From the NCBI RefSeq assembly GCF_008386235.1, contig NZ_CP040671.1, positions 186,001-250,000 of the forward strand: a stretch of 64,000 nt of DNA, read 5' to 3'. Source of the DNA: Thermosynechococcus sp. CL-1 (GTDB taxonomy: Bacteria > Cyanobacteriota > Cyanobacteriia > Thermosynechococcales > Thermosynechococcaceae). The notes under the pieces are model-generated. The model was not told where the DNA came from. It searched no databases and saw only the letters and a list, made by a program, of their open reading frames with translations. Positions 3,901 to 49,380 of the stretch are shown here, in pieces (the first letter of the stretch is position 1; every line of letters starts with the position of its first letter). A program made the position numbers and the translations under genes.

Positions 3901-5376
<1,476 letters not shown>

Positions 5377-5451
5377 TCATTTGCGTTTTTTCAGAGGGCG
5401 ATCGCTCCCCAAGGGGCACAACGATCGAGACTGAAAGTGGAATGCAGCTTT

Positions 5452-5467
5452 TGGTGCAAGCGCACCA
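5452..5467. repeat. small hairpin upstream of the ATP synthase beta operon
   Basis: TGGTGC-AAGC-GCACCA is a perfect 6-bp stem with a 4-base loop, about 100 bases upstream of the beta-subunit start in the 228-base gap 5350-5577. It could be part of the 5' leader of the minus-strand atp operon or an operator. Nothing else stood out in the gap. Confidence 0.4.
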
Positions 5468-5577
5468 CAATACAACGTACCACTAATGCAGCCTTTTTCT
5501 ATCGGATTCAGTGGGATGCAAATCTGAGATCTTATTGACCCCGCTCAGTTGCTGTGAAAAAGGCGGCAGGGCAGGAA

Positions 5578-5772
5578 TTAGCCGACGACTTCAATTTCGT
5601 CCTCAAAAAACCAAGTGCTGGAGCGATCGTCAAAGGTGACAATGACGCCAACCCCACTGCCATCGGTCATCTTAAAACCAGTAATTTGACCCACTTGGCC
5701 GAGTTTTTGAATGATGTCTTGGGCGACGCGATCGCGAATTCGACAGACGCGCACTTTTTGCCCCACGTCCAT
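5578..5772 (-). CDS. petP: cytochrome b6f complex subunit PetP
   Basis: A small SH3-fold-like protein that associates peripherally with the cyanobacterial and red algal cytochrome b6f complex and affects linear electron flow. The 64-residue product starts MDVGQKVRVCRIRDRV and contains the family stretch FKMTDGSGVGVIVTFDDRSSTWFFEDE. ATG 5772 is preferred over the longer open frame to 5814, whose extra 14 residues are not family-like. It stands alone, divergent from ddl. Confidence 0.88.
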   Translation of the reverse strand: MDVGQKVRVCRIRDRVAQDIIQKLGQVGQITGFKMTDGSGVGVIVTFDDRSSTWFFEDEIEVVG

Positions 5773-7564: not shown

Positions 7565-8059
7565 GTGAATAAACTGCAAGAGTGGGGCTTCAGCAAAGAC
7601 TGGTGGCGCAATCAACGGGGAGAATTTTGGGTCATTGGCCAAACGGTACTCAGTATCGGCTTTATTCTCTTGCCAGTGGTACGAGTGGTTAGCCTACCCT
7701 TGGTGGTGCGCCTAGGATTGACCCTTGGCTTGGGGCTGATTGGCCTTGGTCTAGGCATTGCTGGCTTGTTTCACCTAGGGAACAACTTGACACCCCTACC
7801 CCATCCCAAGGAGGACAGTCAGTTAGTAACCACGGGGGTTTATGCTTGGGTGCGCCATCCGATCTATAGCAGTGTGATCTTTTTGGCCTTGGCCTATGGT
7901 GTATGGCAAATGAGTCTTTCCCACGGGCTGGGGGCGATCGCCCTCTTCATTTTCTTTGACCGCAAGGCCGCTCAAGAAGAACAGTGGCTATCGGCCAAGT
8001 TTAAGGACTACCCAACCTATCGGCAAACGGTGAAGAAACTGATTCCTCTTCTCTACTAA
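7565..8059 (+). CDS. isoprenylcysteine carboxyl methyltransferase-like membrane protein
   Basis: A 164-residue membrane protein of the ICMT/PEMT-like methyltransferase superfamily. The diagnostic SAM-binding part is the C-terminal stretch GVYAWVRHPIYSSV followed by a hydrophobic helix and the EEQWLSAKFKDYPTYRQ segment. The start is GTG 7565, 48 bases after the 4Fe-4S gene, so the two may be co-transcribed. The methyl acceptor is unknown, as for most bacterial members. Confidence 0.75.
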   Translation: MNKLQEWGFSKDWWRNQRGEFWVIGQTVLSIGFILLPVVRVVSLPLVVRLGLTLGLGLIGLGLGIAGLFHLGNNLTPLPHPKEDSQLVTTGVYAWVRHPIYSSVIFLALAYGVWQMSLSHGLGAIALFIFFDRKAAQEEQWLSAKFKDYPTYRQTVKKLIPLLY

Positions 8060-42389: not shown

Positions 42390-43091
42390 TCAACCATACT
42401 CCTGCTCTGTAATGCGCCAGCGCGCCGAAAGAACACTGGGTTCTAAACTCAAGCGGCTGACCAAGCCTTCAACAAAATCATCATTGCGCTCTTGACTGAG
42501 GAGTTCTGCTTCAATATGGACGCGATCGGGGGTGTCTTCAATATCCTCGCTGAGGAGCGATCGCAACTTCAGCCGACTGCCCGCCAGCGACTGTAACAAG
42601 AGTGCGCGCAAATGAGCCTCAGCATCGGCGCGGCAGACAATATCACAGCGATAGCATAATTCCACTTCGGTGCCCTTGAGGGGCTGCTGATTGATGCGAT
42701 AGCCGAGGGGACGCAAGAGCAGATTGGCCATGAGCACTGCCACTGCTCCTAAGGTTGCCTGATAGAGTAATCCCGAACCACACAGTGCTCCTACTGCCGC
42801 TGCACACCACAGGGTGGCTGCCGTATTTAAGCCGCGCACCGACAGGCCTTCCCGCAGGATCACGCCCCCGCCGAGAAACCCAATACCAGAGACAATTTGG
42901 GCGGCAATCCGCGTTGGACTCGCTTCCCCCGGGGTGAGAGCCGAAAGCATGACAAACAGGGCTGCCCCCGTTGCTACGAGGGTATTTGTGCGCAGACCGG
43001 CCATGCGCTGCCGCCACTGCCGCTCCAAGCCGAGGGCTGCCCCAAGACAAAAGGCTGCTACCAAACGGACAATAAAATCACTCGTTGACAT
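42390..43091 (-). CDS. mgtC: MgtC/SapB family membrane protein
   Basis: 233 residues: four to five membrane helices in the N-terminal 140 residues with the family signature LGLERQWRQRMAGLRTNTLV and GIGFLGGGVIL, then a soluble ACT-like C-terminal domain. MgtC proteins help cells grow at low magnesium, in some bacteria by modulating ATP synthase or transporters. Its placement three bases after mgtE strengthens a magnesium role. Last gene of the minus-strand operon starting at 44945. Confidence 0.88.
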   Translation of the reverse strand: MSTSDFIVRLVAAFCLGAALGLERQWRQRMAGLRTNTLVATGAALFVMLSALTPGEASPTRIAAQIVSGIGFLGGGVILREGLSVRGLNTAATLWCAAAVGALCGSGLLYQATLGAVAVLMANLLLRPLGYRINQQPLKGTEVELCYRCDIVCRADAEAHLRALLLQSLAGSRLKLRSLLSEDIEDTPDRVHIEAELLSQERNDDFVEGLVSRLSLEPSVLSARWRITEQEYG

Positions 43092-43094
43092 CGG

Positions 43095-44471
43095 TTAAAA
43101 CGACAGCCCTAGGAAGACACTCACCAGATAGAAGTAGAGCAACAGCCCTGTAAAGTCCTTGATGGTTGTGATAAAGGGATCCGCCGCTGGCCCGTGGTCA
43201 AAGCCCAACTTCAGCAACACCCAAGGAAGCAATGCCCCTAAGATCGCCGCGAAGGTAATTACAACAAAAAGTGAAAGCCCGACAGCCAGTCCCAGTTGGG
43301 GAATTCCGTTGGGTAACCCTTGCCAGAGGAAGGCAATCAAGCCGCCAGCAGTTCCCAAGATAAGACCCATGATCGCACCAATGCGAAACTCGCGAAAGAG
43401 ATAACCGCCATAGCGACGAATATCAATGTGCTGCCAAGCAAGACCACGGGCAAAGACAGTGGTGGATTGGGTACCGACATTGCCTCCCATGTCCATGACC
43501 ACAGGAATGAAAATGGCTACGGCAACGACGGCTTCCAGAACTTCCTCAAAGTACTGAATCACGCCGCCAACAATCATACCGCCAATGAGGGTAATGATCA
43601 GGCAGATAATCCGCAGTTGCACTGCATAGCGAATGGGACCGCGCACCAGTCGTTCACTCCAAGCTTGATCGCGGTTGAGCAAGTTGCCCACACCTGCTTG
43701 CGCCAAAATGGTGCTCGTTGCCTCCTCCTCAATCAGGTCAATCACATCATCAAAGGTGATATCGCCCACCAGTCGCCCCTCTTGATCCACCACAGGAATA
43801 GCAGGGACATCGTATTCCTTGAGGAGTTTGGCTGCTGCGAGTTCCGGCGCGGTCACAGCGATCGCCAGTTCCTGTCCTTGCACCAAATCTTGAAGCGGCT
43901 GGTGGGGATTTGCTTTCATCAACTGGATCGGCTGCACAAAGCCACGATAAAAGCGCTGTTCATCAATGACAAAAATAATGCTCAGGTCATTAATATCCAA
44001 GGAACTCTCACGGATAGCGGCGATCGCCTGCTCCACGGTCAAGTCTTGCCGCAGCGCCAAGTAGCGCAGATTCATGCGCCGACCAATTGTGCCCTCAGGA
44101 TAGCCCAACAGCAGGTTCACGGCGTCGCGGGATTCTGAGCTTAACTGGCTGAGCAACCGTTTGGTGACCTTGGCAGGTAATTCCTCAAAGAGCCGCACCC
44201 GTTGATCGGCCTCAAGGGCTTCTAGAAAATGCAGAATCTCAGGATCCGTCATCCCTTCAATGAGGGTTGCCTGCTCATCGGGAGTCAGGGCTTCAAAGAC
44301 TGCGATCGCCTTGTCTTTTTCGAGGAGGCGAAAGGCCAATACCCGCTTGTGGGGGTCAATTTGGCGCAGGGCACGCACTAGCTCAGGAATCGTCAGTTGG
44401 TTGGCTGTCCGCTTGGCAGCACCAAGACCCTGCGGATAGGTCAGCAGATCATCGAGGGGATTGATTACCAT
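43095..44471 (-). CDS. mgtE: magnesium transporter MgtE
   Basis: Mg2+-gated channel. 458 residues in the standard order: N-terminal superhelical domain (about 20-130; LLEKDKAIAVFEAL, LLLGYPEGTIGRRMN), CBS pair (about 140-260), a connecting helix and five C-terminal membrane helices including FIPVVMDMGGNVGTQSTTVFARG, the pore signature. Cytosolic Mg2+ closes the channel through the N and CBS domains. It lies 13 bases after the DUF7219-like gene and three before mgtC, so the operon is tightly packed. Confidence 0.95.
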   Translation of the reverse strand: MVINPLDDLLTYPQGLGAAKRTANQLTIPELVRALRQIDPHKRVLAFRLLEKDKAIAVFEALTPDEQATLIEGMTDPEILHFLEALEADQRVRLFEELPAKVTKRLLSQLSSESRDAVNLLLGYPEGTIGRRMNLRYLALRQDLTVEQAIAAIRESSLDINDLSIIFVIDEQRFYRGFVQPIQLMKANPHQPLQDLVQGQELAIAVTAPELAAAKLLKEYDVPAIPVVDQEGRLVGDITFDDVIDLIEEEATSTILAQAGVGNLLNRDQAWSERLVRGPIRYAVQLRIICLIITLIGGMIVGGVIQYFEEVLEAVVAVAIFIPVVMDMGGNVGTQSTTVFARGLAWQHIDIRRYGGYLFREFRIGAIMGLILGTAGGLIAFLWQGLPNGIPQLGLAVGLSLFVVITFAAILGALLPWVLLKLGFDHGPAADPFITTIKDFTGLLLYFYLVSVFLGLSF

Positions 44472-44484
44472 CGCATTGCTCCTT

Positions 44485-44760
44485 CTATGGTTGACAATTT
44501 AGGGTGGGTGAGACAGGGGCATAGGCTTCGCTCAATTGATGCCAGAGATCAGCCAACTGGTTGTAGGCTTCGGATGTAGAAAGTTGCCCACTCGTATGGA
44601 GAGCAGCGATAAACCCTGCCCGTTGAGCAAATTTCTGTAGGTAGGCATCAAAGGTCAGCGCGTCTAGGGTGACGTGCCCACGGTAAAGGGTATAGGGGCA
44701 CAGAAATGCCTGCTTTAATGCCTGCTTTGCATCGTGGGTCATCATGGTTCTAAGCTCCAT
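44485..44760 (-). CDS. small DUF7219-like protein
   Basis: 91 residues, soluble, with the stretch FLCPYTLYRGHVTLDALTFDAYLQKFAQR when read in parts and a C-terminal helix QLADLWHQLSEAY. It resembles the cyanobacterial DUF7219 family (LYP-x-Y-x-G, NLQEFAQR, EAY-x-LW), recalled from memory. Function unknown. ATGs at codons 1, 6 and 7 are all possible starts. Second gene of the magnesium operon, 29 bases after the 51-aa gene. Confidence 0.65.
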   Translation of the reverse strand: MELRTMMTHDAKQALKQAFLCPYTLYRGHVTLDALTFDAYLQKFAQRAGFIAALHTSGQLSTSEAYNQLADLWHQLSEAYAPVSPTLNCQP

Positions 44761-44789: not shown

Positions 44790-44945
44790 TTAACGAGACA
44801 ACTCAAAGGGTGAGAACTCTCCCAAGTGGGCGATCGCTTGGCTCATGACCGTAATCATCAGGTGGCCAAGGGCAACACCCAGCACTTCCGAAAGGGTAAT
44901 TCCCAGCATTTCGGCCAGCATGCTGAACAAACAAACTTCAAACAT
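44790..44945 (-). CDS. 51-residue hydrophobic protein heading the magnesium operon
   Basis: ATG 44945 to TAA 44790. It begins MFEVCLFSMLAEMLGITLSE and continues with a hydrophobic stretch VLGVALGHLMITVMSQ, ending FSPFELSR. It has a good ribosome binding site (GGAGAG, six bases before ATG). It would form one or two amphipathic or membrane helices. Too short for usual gene calls. It is 29 bases upstream of the DUF7219-like gene and shares its strand and transcript. It could be a regulatory peptide of MgtE, like other small membrane proteins at Mg2+ transporters, but that is only positional inference. No family recognised. Confidence 0.6.
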   Translation of the reverse strand: MFEVCLFSMLAEMLGITLSEVLGVALGHLMITVMSQAIAHLGEFSPFELSR

Positions 44946-45379
44946 AGAAACTCTCCGTTGCTAATGGTTTTGCCACGCAACAACTTGAGCGATGAAAAGT
45001 AGTCGTTCAATAAAAACGCTTGACTACGGGCGATCGCTCTCAACAACAAACAGGTTTGAACCAGCCAACTTTAGGCAGACTCAGGTAGATACCAGACTGA
45101 GACCTATTGAACAATTTGCTTCGTGATCCATCTCCATTTGCAGATCAACTGCCTTGGAACGCGCGGAGATGAACCAGAAGTTCAAGCCATTAGGCAGCAG
45201 ACAAGTCTGAATTCACCTCGGCGATCCTTAGGGGAGAGAGGCTCCACCTATGGCAGGGATCTTCATTAGCGGAGATGGGGTCAGCAGAAGCAACATTACA
45301 GTGACTCCTACTAGACTCCATTAAGAAAATCTCCAAAAATAGACAAATGCCAGCAGCCTAGGAAATCTTTCAACTGCCA
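44946..45379 (-). ncRNA. long structured 5' leader of the magnesium operon
   Basis: From the inferred transcription start near 45379 to ATG 44945 there are about 430 untranslated bases. Visible structure in the minus-strand RNA: a 7-bp stem CATCTCC / GGAGATG (left arm plus 45163-45169, right arm plus 45129-45135) enclosing a GCAG/CTGC hairpin; a second CATCTCCGC copy (plus 45270-45278) that could compete for the same GGAGATG; a bulged stem CTCAG/CTGAG flanked by TAGG/CCTA (plus about 45070-45106); and a terminator-like hairpin at 44999-45027. It does not match the M-box consensus I remember. Confidence 0.5.
44999..45027 (-). terminator. terminator-like hairpin in the magnesium leader
   Basis: On the minus strand GTAGTC pairs with GACTAC across a 17-base loop and is followed by TTTT. 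It sits 54 bases before the first start codon, where a transcription attenuator would be expected. The T-run is short, so strength is uncertain. Confidence 0.45.
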
Positions 45380-45385
45380 CTTGGC

Positions 45386-45414
45386 ATTTTAGGGGGTGAG
45401 CAAGTCTTTGTCAA
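45386..45414 (-). promoter_or_regulatory. consensus promoter of the magnesium operon
   Basis: On the minus strand TTGACA (45409-45414) and TAAAAT (45386-45391) are separated by exactly 17 bases, close to the ideal sigma-70 promoter. Transcription would start near 45379. Confidence 0.75.
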
Positions 45415-45657: not shown

Positions 45658-48600
45658 ATGATTATAGATGAATTTGAGCATTTTACTGAATTATTGGTCA
45701 ACTACACCGATGATCTCATTTGCCTGCACGAACCGGATGGCAACTATCTATATGTGACTCCCTCCAGCAAAACCCTTTTAGGCTATTCTCCTGAAGAACT
45801 GATTGGTAAGAGTCCCTACACATTATTTCATCCTGAAGATGCAGAGCGCATTCGCAGTGGTGCCCATGCCCTCACCCTGCAAGGCAGTGTGAATGTGATA
45901 GAAACCTATCGCATCCGCAAAAAGCATGGCGGATATGTTTGGTTGGAAACCCTCACGCACCCCATTTGTGATGCAGGGGGAAATGTTTTATTTTTAGTCT
46001 CCACATCGCGGGATATTACCCGTCGCCGTCAACTCGAGCTAGAGCTACAAGCCAAGCAAGAACTACTGGAAGCCTTTTTTCAACAATCCCTTGAGGCCTG
46101 CTTCTTCATGATGTTGGATCAGCCCATCCGCTGGGATGACACAGTCAACAAAGAGGAAATCTTGGAGTATGTCCTTGATCATCAGCGGATTACGCGTGTC
46201 AACAGTGCCTTTGCCCAGCAGTATCAATTACCGCCGCAGGAGCTGATTGGCCTGACGCCGCGCATTTGCTTTAAGGATGATCTGGAACTCGCCAAACGGC
46301 TGTGGCGAGCACTCTTTGATCTGGGCTATTTTCACATTGAAATTGAACTCCACCGCCGCGATGGTAGCTCCTTTTGGGTGGAGGGGAACTATGTGTGCCT
46401 CTACAACCAAAATAAGGAAATCATTGGCCACTTTGGCGTGCAGCGGGACATTAGCGATCGCATGCGTCTGCAAGCAGAAATTGCCCAAAAAACCGCTGAA
46501 TTAGAGTATTTCTTTGGCTCTTCCCTAGAGCTATTTATGATTGCCGATAGTGAGGGACGGCTGCGGCGGGTGAATCAACACTGGCATACCTGCCTGGGCT
46601 ATGACCTGAATCGGTTGGCAGGGGCAAAGTTTGAGGAATTTCTCCACCCCGGCGATCGCCCCCGCCATCGGGAAATGCAGCAACGTCTCCTTGCTGGGGA
46701 GCAAATCACTAACCACACGATTCGCCTGCGCACCCAAGGGGGAGACTACCGCTGGTATGAATGGCAAGGCCTGCTCAGTCAAGGGCGCATCTATGGCGCA
46801 GCGCGGGATGTCACGGAACAGCGCCAATTTAGCGATCGCCTGCAAGCGGCCTACAACCAAGTGACTGATATTTTGGAGAGCATGTCGGATCACTTTTTTG
46901 AAGTGGATCGCGACTTCACAGTTATCTATGTCAACGGGAATTTTTGCCGTCTAGTGGGGAAATCTGCCTCAGAGATGCTGGGGAAAAACCTCTGGGATCT
47001 CTTTCCCGATGAGCGCAACTCAATTTTTGAAAGCCAAAGTCGGCAGGCAATGGCGGAGGAAACCCCTGTCCAATTTGAAACCTTCTATGAGGGGCTGAAC
47101 CAATGGTTTGCGGTACGGGCTTTTCCCACTGGCCGAGGCCTTGCGGTTTTCTTCCAGAATATTACGCTTCAGGTGGACTCCACTACTTCGTTACAGCGAC
47201 GGCAAACCCAAGCGGAACTCCTGCATCGGCTAACCTTGAAAATTCGCCGTTCCCTTGATCTGGAAACGGTTCTTAAAACCGCCCTTGAGGAAGTGCGTCA
47301 ACTGCTGGGGGTCGATCGCACGCTGATTTTCCAGTTCTATGCCGATGGCCGGGGTGAGGTGGTGGCTGAATCGGTAGCGGCACCGCAGTTTTCTCTCATG
47401 CACCGCACCTTCTATGACCCCTGTTTCCACCGTGAGTCTGCCGAAGCCTATCTTCAGGGGCGGGTACTGGCGGTTGCTGATATTAACACCGCTGAAATGA
47501 CCCAGTGTCATCGCGACTTTCTCAACCAATTGCAGGTGCGGGCCTCCTTAGTTGTCCCGATTATTGAAGAGGAACGTCTCTGGGGATTACTCCTGTGCCA
47601 CCACTGCTCTTCTCCTCGACCTTGGGCGATTGACGAGGTGGAGCTGATCCGCCAACTGGGGGAACAACTGGGCTTTGGCATCAACCGTGCCGAATTGGTC
47701 AGTGCCCTCCATCAGGAAAAGGAACGCTATCGGCGGGTTCTTGAGGCACAGACAGAATTGCTCTATCGCTGTACCCCTGAGGGACATCTCACCTTTGGCA
47801 ATCCCGCCTTCTTTCGCTATCTGGCTGAAGCAGGGATGAGTTGCGATTTTGGCGATGTGATCCAGCATCCCTTTGATCCGCTGACGCAGCAACGCTTCCA
47901 ACAACACCTGCAAGCCCTCACCCCCACGCAGTCCATCAGCACGATTGAATGTGGCGTGACTTTTGGTGAAGGACGTTTTGCTTGGTTTGAATGGACAACC
48001 CGCGCTTTTTTTGATCACCAAGGTCGCTGTGTGGAGTATCAATGTGTGGGACGCGACATTACCCGCCGCAAGGAAATGGAGGATCGCTTAATTCACGATG
48101 CCCTCCACGATGCCCTGACAGGACTCCCCAACCGTACGCTGCTCCAAGATCGCTTAAAACACTGCTGGCGCCAGTATCAACGCCATCGCGATCGCCCCTT
48201 TGCCGTTGTTTTTATTGATATTGATCGCTTTAAGCGGGTTAACGATAGCTTGGGACACCAAGCAGGAGATCAGGTGCTGATTACCCTTGCCCAGCGGATG
48301 CAAAGTGTGGTGCCGGAGGGGGATACCTTGGCTCACCTGAGTGGCGATGAGTTTGTGGTGCTGTGTGAAGATCTGGATCCGGAGCAAATGGTGGCTCAGG
48401 TAGAAGCACGGGTTGCCGATCTAGAGCGGGTGATTCAGGAGCCCTTGGTCATTGATGGCCATCTGTTAAGTCTCAGTGCCAGCATTGGCGTCACCTTTAG
48501 CGATCGCGACGCTGCCTCTGCCGCTACCCTCCTGCGGGATGCTGACATTGCCATGTACCAAGCAAAAAAACAGGGATTAGGGCAGTATCGGATTTTTGAC

Positions 48601-49380
48601 CCCCAAATGCACACCCAAGCCCAGAGTTGCTTTACGCTGGAGAGTCAACTGCATCAGGCGATCGCCAACAGTGAGCTACAGGTCTATTTTCAGCCCATTA
48701 TTGAGCTGGAGAGCGGGGCGCTCGTGGGTCTTGAGGCCCTGAGCCGTTGGTTTGATCCTGAAAAGGGTGAAATTCCTGCCGCTGAATTTATTGCCCTTGC
48801 GGAGCAAGCAGGTCTCATTGTCAGCCTTGGCCGACAGGTCTTTGAACGGGCGATCCAGGAATTCAGCCAGTGGCGGCAACAGGACAGCCGTCGCCAGACC
48901 ATGACCTTGGGCATTAATATCTCGCCTCAACAACTGGTGGATGCCAACTTTGTTAGTGATATTTTGGCGGCGCTGCGCAGTGCCCAATTGCCCCCTCATC
49001 TGTTGCATCTGGAGATCACGGAAACGACCATGATCCGCAACCTTGAAGCCACATTGCAGGTGGCCGAGGAACTGCAACAACTGGGGGTTGCCCTCAACAT
49101 TGATGACTTTGGCACGGGCTATTCCTCCCTGAGTCGGTTGCATCAGTTGCCGATCCACGCCCTGAAAATCGATCGCTCCTTTGTCCAGAGCTTAGAGCAG
49201 AGCCAAGCGGCTCAGGAAATTATTGGTGCCGTGATTGCCCTCGGTAAAAGCCTGCGCTTAGATGTGGTGGCAGAGGGGGTGGAAACAGCGACCCAAGCCG
49301 CCCAATTGATTGATCTCGGTTGTCGCTACGGCCAAGGCTACCTCTTTTATCCGCCATTGCCGATTGATTGCTTGCCCTAG
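45658..49380 (+). CDS. multi-PAS/GAF diguanylate cyclase-like and phosphodiesterase protein
   Basis: 1240 residues, no membrane helices. Order: PAS with PAC (about 8-125), second PAS (about 135-270), PAS (about 285-390), PAS (about 395-510), GAF (about 530-690), PAS (about 700-820), GGDEF domain (about 835-1000) and EAL (about 1010-1235). The GGDEF motif is SGDEF and lacks an upstream RxxD inhibitory site. The EAL domain keeps LEALSRW, GINISPQQL, LEITETT, IDDFGTGYSSL, LKIDRSF, AEGVE and GQGY, so phosphodiesterase activity is likely, with the SGDEF domain perhaps regulatory. No clear Shine-Dalgarno before ATG 45658. Element A lies upstream. Confidence 0.92.
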   Translation: MIIDEFEHFTELLVNYTDDLICLHEPDGNYLYVTPSSKTLLGYSPEELIGKSPYTLFHPEDAERIRSGAHALTLQGSVNVIETYRIRKKHGGYVWLETLTHPICDAGGNVLFLVSTSRDITRRRQLELELQAKQELLEAFFQQSLEACFFMMLDQPIRWDDTVNKEEILEYVLDHQRITRVNSAFAQQYQLPPQELIGLTPRICFKDDLELAKRLWRALFDLGYFHIEIELHRRDGSSFWVEGNYVCLYNQNKEIIGHFGVQRDISDRMRLQAEIAQKTAELEYFFGSSLELFMIADSEGRLRRVNQHWHTCLGYDLNRLAGAKFEEFLHPGDRPRHREMQQRLLAGEQITNHTIRLRTQGGDYRWYEWQGLLSQGRIYGAARDVTEQRQFSDRLQAAYNQVTDILESMSDHFFEVDRDFTVIYVNGNFCRLVGKSASEMLGKNLWDLFPDERNSIFESQSRQAMAEETPVQFETFYEGLNQWFAVRAFPTGRGLAVFFQNITLQVDSTTSLQRRQTQAELLHRLTLKIRRSLDLETVLKTALEEVRQLLGVDRTLIFQFYADGRGEVVAESVAAPQFSLMHRTFYDPCFHRESAEAYLQGRVLAVADINTAEMTQCHRDFLNQLQVRASLVVPIIEEERLWGLLLCHHCSSPRPWAIDEVELIRQLGEQLGFGINRAELVSALHQEKERYRRVLEAQTELLYRCTPEGHLTFGNPAFFRYLAEAGMSCDFGDVIQHPFDPLTQQRFQQHLQALTPTQSISTIECGVTFGEGRFAWFEWTTRAFFDHQGRCVEYQCVGRDITRRKEMEDRLIHDALHDALTGLPNRTLLQDRLKHCWRQYQRHRDRPFAVVFIDIDRFKRVNDSLGHQAGDQVLITLAQRMQSVVPEGDTLAHLSGDEFVVLCEDLDPEQMVAQVEARVADLERVIQEPLVIDGHLLSLSASIGVTFSDRDAASAATLLRDADIAMYQAKKQGLGQYRIFDPQMHTQAQSCFTLESQLHQAIANSELQVYFQPIIELESGALVGLEALSRWFDPEKGEIPAAEFIALAEQAGLIVSLGRQVFERAIQEFSQWRQQDSRRQTMTLGINISPQQLVDANFVSDILAALRSAQLPPHLLHLEITETTMIRNLEATLQVAEELQQLGVALNIDDFGTGYSSLSRLHQLPIHALKIDRSFVQSLEQSQAAQEIIGAVIALGKSLRLDVVAEGVETATQAAQLIDLGCRYGQGYLFYPPLPIDCLP

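Follow-up and report, generated by a model that had tools for sequence, protein, structure and literature searches.

Introduction

Chlorophyll, Rubisco and ribosomes all depend on Mg2+, yet a search of open-licence papers turned up no account of the way in which cyanobacteria sense a shortage of it. The closest described systems are enterobacterial and mycobacterial. The small proteins MgtS (31 residues), MgtR (30) and MgtU (28) act on enterobacterial Mg2+ transporters (PMC10710835). In E. coli, ribosomes translating MgtL are lost at an EPDP sequence at low Mg2+, opening mgtA (PMC11282234). In Salmonella, acidic codons in mgtQ, which lies between mgtC and mgtB, abort translation, and alternative stem-loops then expose a ribosome-binding site that is otherwise buried (PMC8092293), and the leader of the mgtCBR operon carries mgtM and mgtP, the latter toggling between stem-loops in an attenuator that lacks a classical U-run terminator (PMC3641672). 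In Mycobacterium tuberculosis an M-box controls a conserved small upstream ORF, rv1805A, that precedes the operon (PMC12810186). Cyanobacteria are reported to be without Rho, and many of their transcripts end by unknown means (PMC13289151).

Here we describe an Mg2+ operon within a 64,000-nucleotide stretch of Thermosynechococcus DNA (the window). We lean slightly towards a reading in which its 51-residue protein, here called smallA, is a single-helix membrane protein of the Mg2+ regulon that tunes a transporter, encoded in an operon under a Mg2+-responsive leader-peptide switch. The leader is the more surprising of the two results.

Results

Organization of the Mg2+ operon

The operon is read from the minus strand in the order leader ORF, hairpin region (45178-45124), 51-residue ORF, DUF7219, mgtE and mgtC. 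Its features are as follows:

45386-45414 (-), promoter-like TTGACA-17-TAAAAT, 11 of 12 consensus positions matched
45190-45321 (-), leader ORF of 43 codons, MESSRSHCNVASADPISANEDPCHRWSLSPLRIAEVNSDLSAA, with GGAG at 45334-45331; homologues in 26 genomes of 12 families
45256-45264 (-), acidic/proline core codons E20-D21-P22 of the leader ORF, placed by alignment of 21 leader peptides
45206-45219 (-), RNA region 1 (GAGGTGAATTCAGA), within the leader ORF; predicted partner of region 2 from duplex energy and covariation in relatives
45166-45178 (-), RNA region 2 (TCTGGTTCATCTC), predicted partner of either region 1 or region 3
45124-45135 (-), RNA region 3 (GGAGATGGATCA), Shine-Dalgarno-like 3' arm; predicted partner of region 2
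44951-44956 (-), ribosome-binding site GGAGAG of the 51-residue ORF; GGAGAG or GGAGAA in congeners
44790-44945 (-), smallA, 51-residue small hydrophobic protein, assigned from conservation, dN/dS and AlphaFold
44485-44760 (-), DUF7219 protein, 91 residues (Pfam PF23856, E 2.6e-15); likelier start at 44745
43095-44471 (-), mgtE, Mg2+ channel (TIGR00400, E 4e-97, above cut-off; Pfam MgtE_N, CBS and MgtE)
42390-43091 (-), mgtC (Pfam MgtC, 6.7e-38; MgtC_SapB_C, 1.4e-26)

The divergent neighbour of the operon is a large PAS-GAF-GGDEF-EAL gene (window 45658-49380, plus strand). The same genome also encodes one CorA, and our search of cyanobacterial genomes for mgtA returned no mgtA-type ATPase from it.

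The short ORF with a good GGAGAG site that the original prediction described is present on the minus strand, with its ATG at 44945 and its stop codon ending at 44790; it encodes 51 residues, MFEVCLFSMLAEMLGITLSEVLGVALGHLMITVMSQAIAHLGEFSPFELSR, and the GGAGAG (44956-44951) ends 5 nt ahead of the ATG. Its designation as the first gene of the operon has to be withdrawn, as the 43-codon leader ORF (45321-45190) precedes it by about 245 nt, behind a conserved promoter. It heads the operon in the restricted sense of being the first ORF of ordinary size, the leader ORF being the first conserved one, and most likely opens the structural part of an operon that the upstream leader controls. The predicted spacing of 29 bases to the next gene applies to the DUF7219 ATG at 44760, a start codon that lacks a Shine-Dalgarno sequence; from the likelier ATG at 44745, which has a well-placed GGAG, the gap is 44 nt.

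SmallA is conserved and under purifying selection

ATG-initiated ORFs of at least 51 codons appear on the minus strand in 53% of Markov shuffles of the intergenic region (5.7% when a Shine-Dalgarno sequence is included), so length alone is no proof of a gene. The case for smallA as a real gene comes from its conservation. The frame is intact in the congeners G007, G008 and G001 (92, 90 and 85% identity), and more distant relatives, found at a profile E value of 1e-13 or better, occur in G038 and G082 (44% identity), which belong to one genus of Gloeomargaritales, and in G191 (38%). Twelve positions are invariant across the seven sequences: M1, F2, E3, C5, L6, E12, L14, G15, I16, L18, L22 and L26. 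The substitution ratio, one of the checks suggested with the original prediction, indicates purifying selection, with dN/dS of 0.07-0.19 among congeners. Pooling three pairs (window-G007, G008-G001 and G038-G082) gives 25 synonymous changes per 106 sites against 12 non-synonymous changes per 335 (p 5e-9).

The other suggested check, persistence of the frame among relatives, does not refute the prediction, although its outcome is divided. Six genomes keep it (G007, G008, G001, G038, G082, G191), while in two congeners it has been lost: G006 carries a short deletion that breaks the frame but retains the leader and mgtE, and G010, which retains the leader, mgtE and mgtC, has a deletion after which MFEICLF is all that is left of the protein, the reading continuing out of frame into DUF7219. 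The range is also patchy, amounting to 1 of 36 genomes in one family and 2 of 8 in one order; a scan of named genomes gave matches in two records only, and smallA is absent beside the more distant mgtE copies. Since it is intact and constrained in relatives but lost in G006 and G010, smallA is under selection yet dispensable in some lineages. The two losses, together with the ease with which half of the shuffled sequences yield an ATG ORF as long, are what a chance open frame would have in its favor; its occurrence in three families at such E values, its synteny with Mg2+ genes and a dN/dS well below 1 refute that reading, to which we assign almost no weight. On comparative sequence grounds it is nearly certain that smallA is a genuine gene under purifying selection.

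Predicted structure and genomic context of smallA

As predicted, the protein is rich in methionine and leucine (5 Met, 9 Leu) and has a hydrophobic core, with a GRAVY of 1.07 and a best 19-residue mean of 1.75. AlphaFold, applied to the seven sequences, models one helix over residues 2-42 (mean pLDDT 79.5). Because its hydrophobicity is high and its helical moment low, the helix reads as membrane-spanning rather than surface-lying, and from the modelling smallA is probably a single-helix membrane protein, the shape to be expected of a small modulator of Mg2+ transport. Faces of the small-xxx-small type are a common packing surface between membrane helices; the smallA helix carries an unbroken one (A11-G15-S19-G23-G27, with G-T-A-G in Gloeomargaritales). 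No Pfam or NCBIfam family matched smallA up to E 1.

In Thermosynechococcus, smallA adjoins mgtE/mgtC, while in Gloeomargaritales it lies beside an mgtA-type ATPase gene followed by mgtC, at a locus from which DUF7219 is missing; the transport genes in its company are thus of two unrelated kinds. In G191 it is followed by smallB (below) and then DUF7219 with no transporter beside them, and an mgtE gene elsewhere in that genome carries its own copy of the leader. In every genome found with smallA, a leader ORF lies upstream of it. Modulation of Mg2+ transport is plausible, and is our best single guess from this context and the predicted shape: the helix would pack against an Mg2+ transporter, or against a protease acting on the transporter, and so tune activity or stability. 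Both the membrane location and the target are what we infer from these data.

Two other roles deserve consideration. The first places smallA in Mg2+ homeostasis away from the transporter, acting on membrane properties, on MgtC, or as a module with DUF7219. The G191 locus, where smallA, smallB and DUF7219 stand behind a leader without a transporter, fits such a role, as do the adjacency of smallA and DUF7219 in Thermosynechococcus and the fact that MgtC is the other constant neighbour in the operon. However, transporters elsewhere in G191 could be the target, one mgtE there having a leader copy, and Gloeomargaritales keep smallA beside mgtA where DUF7219 is missing; we consider this role unlikely, though deserving of some weight. 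The second treats smallA as another cis-acting leader ORF, whose translation matters but whose product does not, for instance by coupling into DUF7219 and mgtE. SmallA does sit in a long interval between promoter and mgtE, it is dispensable in two congeners, and Mg2+ operons can hold several cis-acting short ORFs, as seen with mgtM/mgtP and mgtQ (PMC3641672, PMC8092293). Against this, selection acts on the amino acids, the protein is kept across three families despite differing downstream genes (mgtE, mgtA, smallB), and smallA is served by a ribosome-binding site of its own and is predicted to form a coherent helix, which together make a purely cis-acting role quite improbable. The tuning of a transporter by smallA remains the reading that we carry forward.

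A leader ORF family precedes Mg2+ transport genes

Searches with the leader peptide, a survey upstream of mgtA and the G191 locus together gave 28 copies of the leader ORF in 26 genomes from 12 cyanobacterial families. Downstream sequence is readable for 26 of them (the other two lie at contig ends), and these precede mgtE (14 copies), mgtA (9), mgtC alone (1), an Nramp-family gene (1) and smallA-smallB-DUF7219 (1); the mgtE count includes the genus of the window, where the leader reaches mgtE via smallA and DUF7219 where present. At least 14 leaders were found by sequence match before their context was inspected, so the association with Mg2+ genes is not a product of how the leaders were collected. 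The leaders of G198 and G382 were first found upstream of mgtA and are thus no independent evidence of linkage. Many further matches at E 0.002-0.05, and one in G259 (E 3e-4), were set aside as chance, having partial profile cover or lacking the leader anatomy.

Alignment of 21 peptides gives the consensus MExSGSSxxxATxQExxxSDEDP...MNLPxxxL. Most copies encode 29-58 residues, with an acidic core, usually containing proline, mostly at residues 15-30; this core is often SDEDP, is NEDP in the window, and elsewhere appears as SDESP or DEESEPEP, so that acidic or acidic/proline residues are present within the first 30 residues. Across the 12 families the ORF retains its start, its ribosome-binding site and the acidic core, and indels occur in multiples of three. 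TTGAC lies at about -88 to -121 from the ORF start in 24 of the 25 leaders examined. Within the genus dN/dS of the leader ORF reaches 1.2 with low dS, so conservation is partly at the RNA level and a role for the peptide is less certain; strong selection on the whole peptide was set aside on the same grounds. In G006 the leader ORF carries a frameshift after the core.

Side observations concern three of these loci. In G003 (L096) the leader ORF (7825-7959, minus strand) is followed by scraps of mgtE and then an intact mgtC; it seems that mgtE was lost by internal deletion while the leader and mgtC stayed. In a second G003 locus (L097, about 4940-5600) the interval between leader and mgtA holds a tandem repeat with two copies of about 260 nt. 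In G111 an Nramp-family gene (L115:2-898, minus strand) lies behind the leader, preceded by a 45-residue hydrophobic ORF, and may encode an Mg2+-transporting relative of Nramp.

Predicted alternative pairings in the leader RNA

Regions 1, 2 and 3 offer mutually exclusive predicted folds around the end of the leader ORF. Region 1 (consensus GRUGAAU.UGCC) lies near the 3' end of the ORF. In the window its duplex with region 2 is worth -14.7 kcal/mol (shuffles -9.5 +/- 1.8), and over the leaders the mean is -12.7 kcal/mol against -9.5 for shuffled sequences; 20 of 22 leaders have their best site at a shared position. Past the leader stop codon, region 2 (GGUUCAUCUC) can instead pair with region 3 (GGAGRUGAACC) around an inner helix. 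When the window leader is folded, the 1:2 pairing is the minimum as long as region 1 can take part; otherwise the 2:3 hairpin forms. Region 3 is Shine-Dalgarno-like; a start codon after it is missing in the window, and an ATG is present there in several relatives. A tiny ORF of 8-9 codons was observed on this arm in a few loci (L092, L097 and L050, with MNKFQSTS in G003 and G135, and MKSLKSPFW) and is absent elsewhere.

Between regions 1 and 2 lies a further hairpin, which spans the leader stop codon. Compensatory change is seen in five of its six pairs, and its covariation score lies above all 500 shuffles, in a comparison that spans several families and uses shuffles that ignore relatedness. 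Pairing holds in 96.4% of the cells of the 2:3 hairpin alignment, compensatory change being confined to the inner helix, while the 1:2 helix varies mostly on one side. The covariation alignments left out G003b, G064, G087 and G235, which have deviant hairpins, and Thermosynechococcus, a choice that favors structure. The second G191 leader has a shifted frame yet keeps GATGAATCTGCCC at and past the new stop codon, suggesting that the RNA itself matters. Folding and covariation thus support a leader with translation-dependent alternative folds, 1:2 and 2:3, as predicted from sequence.

We looked for an intrinsic terminator (a GC-rich stem with a U-run) as the output of such a switch. None was recognisable within 520 nt in 24 of 25 leaders, nor in the window leader, and this candidate was rejected. 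An Rfam search with E values allowed up to 1 gave no match for the window leader, and six other loci likewise had none at their leaders, which places this RNA outside the M-box and the other Mg2+ riboswitches modelled in Rfam. Sub-threshold Rfam matches to Mn2+ and cobalamin riboswitches in other loci fall outside the leader; one of the Mn2+ type (yybP-ykoY, L099:5327-5487, minus strand) lies near a UPF0016-like transporter gene.

The same data bear on whether the leader could instead be a riboswitch that binds an ion or metabolite directly, the ORF being a passenger or a coupling device. A structured, covarying RNA, the low synonymous divergence of the ORF within the genus and the second G191 leader, in which region 1 is kept past the stop after the frame shift, would all suit a riboswitch. 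Yet Rfam holds no aptamer that matches the leader, the start, ribosome-binding site and acidic core persist in 12 families with indels in threes, and the alternative pairings sit exactly around the end of the ORF, as in translation-driven attenuators. We regard direct binding as rather unlikely and continue with the leader-peptide reading.

SmallB and DUF7219

A second small protein, smallB (47-59 residues, MFVLFEFVLDHIDDVLAIVCGQF...), has invariant charged residues. It lies directly before mgtA and behind the leader in G158, G198, G235 and G031, and after smallA in G191 (loci L088, L117, L128, L170 and L094:2870-3079). An hhalign probability of 12% gives no ground for homology with smallA, and we claim none. 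Other small ORFs take the place of smallB in G382 (before mgtA) and in G111 (before the Nramp gene). Roughly 27 high-scoring mgtA genes were found in 390 cyanobacterial genomes, and inspection of the leaderless ones revealed no comparable hydrophobic ORF with a Shine-Dalgarno sequence. DUF7219, present in the Mg2+ operon of the window (44485-44760, minus strand), recurs in G191 behind the leader (L094:3759-4067, plus strand). It is a candidate Mg2+-homeostasis family, for which we found no paper in the open-licence literature.

Discussion

The leader may act as a Mg2+-responsive leader-peptide switch like enterobacterial MgtL and MgtQ. With ample Mg2+, ribosomes would finish the 43-codon leader ORF and cover region 1, so that region 2 would pair with region 3, the Shine-Dalgarno-like sequence would be buried and the operon would remain low. 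With scarce Mg2+, ribosomes would drop off at the acidic/proline core (NEDP in the window, SDEDP in many relatives), a role suggested for the core by analogy; region 1 would then capture region 2 and region 3 would be freed, permitting smallA, DUF7219, MgtE and MgtC to be made. In this scheme we infer Mg2+ as the signal, the drop-off of ribosomes, the direction of the response and the way in which freed region 3 raises expression. The output step would have to work without Rho and without an intrinsic terminator, a point that counts against the scheme.

The wider proposal is a cyanobacteria-wide, Rho-free Mg2+ switch, deep-branching lineages such as Gloeomargaritales included, that joins ribosome drop-off at an acidic/proline core of the leader peptide to a covarying two-state RNA and serves four kinds of transport gene, two families of small membrane proteins and DUF7219; we judge it evenly balanced between right and wrong. 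For the leader switch we found no published description in open-licence papers, and subscription journals may hold prior work. If the proposal is true, ribosome-operated sensing of Mg2+ would extend outside enterobacteria and to organisms without Rho. A leader common to mgtE, mgtA, mgtC and Nramp-type genes in 12 families would allow a regulon to be delineated from sequence alone, and smallA, smallB and DUF7219, so far unannotated, would become Mg2+-homeostasis genes open to testing.

Comparison with known systems

SmallA is like MgtS, MgtR and MgtU in being small, hydrophobic and associated with Mg2+ transporters, alongside which those proteins are encoded or co-regulated; the model of smallA itself has one helix. 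It lies in Mg2+ operons (mgtE-mgtC or mgtA-mgtC), with G191 as the exception. It differs from them in its length of 51 residues, in being first rather than last in its operon and in having mgtE as its neighbour in the window, and it shows no sequence homology to them as judged by Pfam and NCBIfam families alone.

Among leaders, the arrangement in the window is like that of rv1805A in M. tuberculosis, with a Mg2+-linked leader RNA and a conserved small ORF ahead of the operon; there, however, an M-box aptamer acts with Rho-dependent termination, whereas the window leader has no M-box match. With mgtM/mgtP it would share selection of a stem-loop by ORF translation, and it shares the lack of a U-run terminator, but the signals in that system are ATP and proline, and mgtP stalls at Pro codons, unlike the drop-off proposed here. 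MgtL, which precedes mgtA in E. coli and Salmonella, provides further parallels: a short ORF in a long leader of a Mg2+ gene, acidic/proline residues within the first 30 residues and alternative folds. MgtL is short with EPDP at residues 2-5, whereas most of the peptides here have 29-58 residues, with the core mostly at 15-30, and its output is Rho-dependent termination, in contrast to cyanobacteria, which are reported to be without Rho (PMC13289151). The leader thus resembles MgtL and MgtQ in its working parts, a likeness for which we do not claim homology. MgtQ has 8 codons and frees the ribosome-binding site of mgtB, whereas here several hundred nt lie between the Shine-Dalgarno-like arm and the transporter gene downstream; of the systems compared, mgtQ is the closest to the leader in logic.
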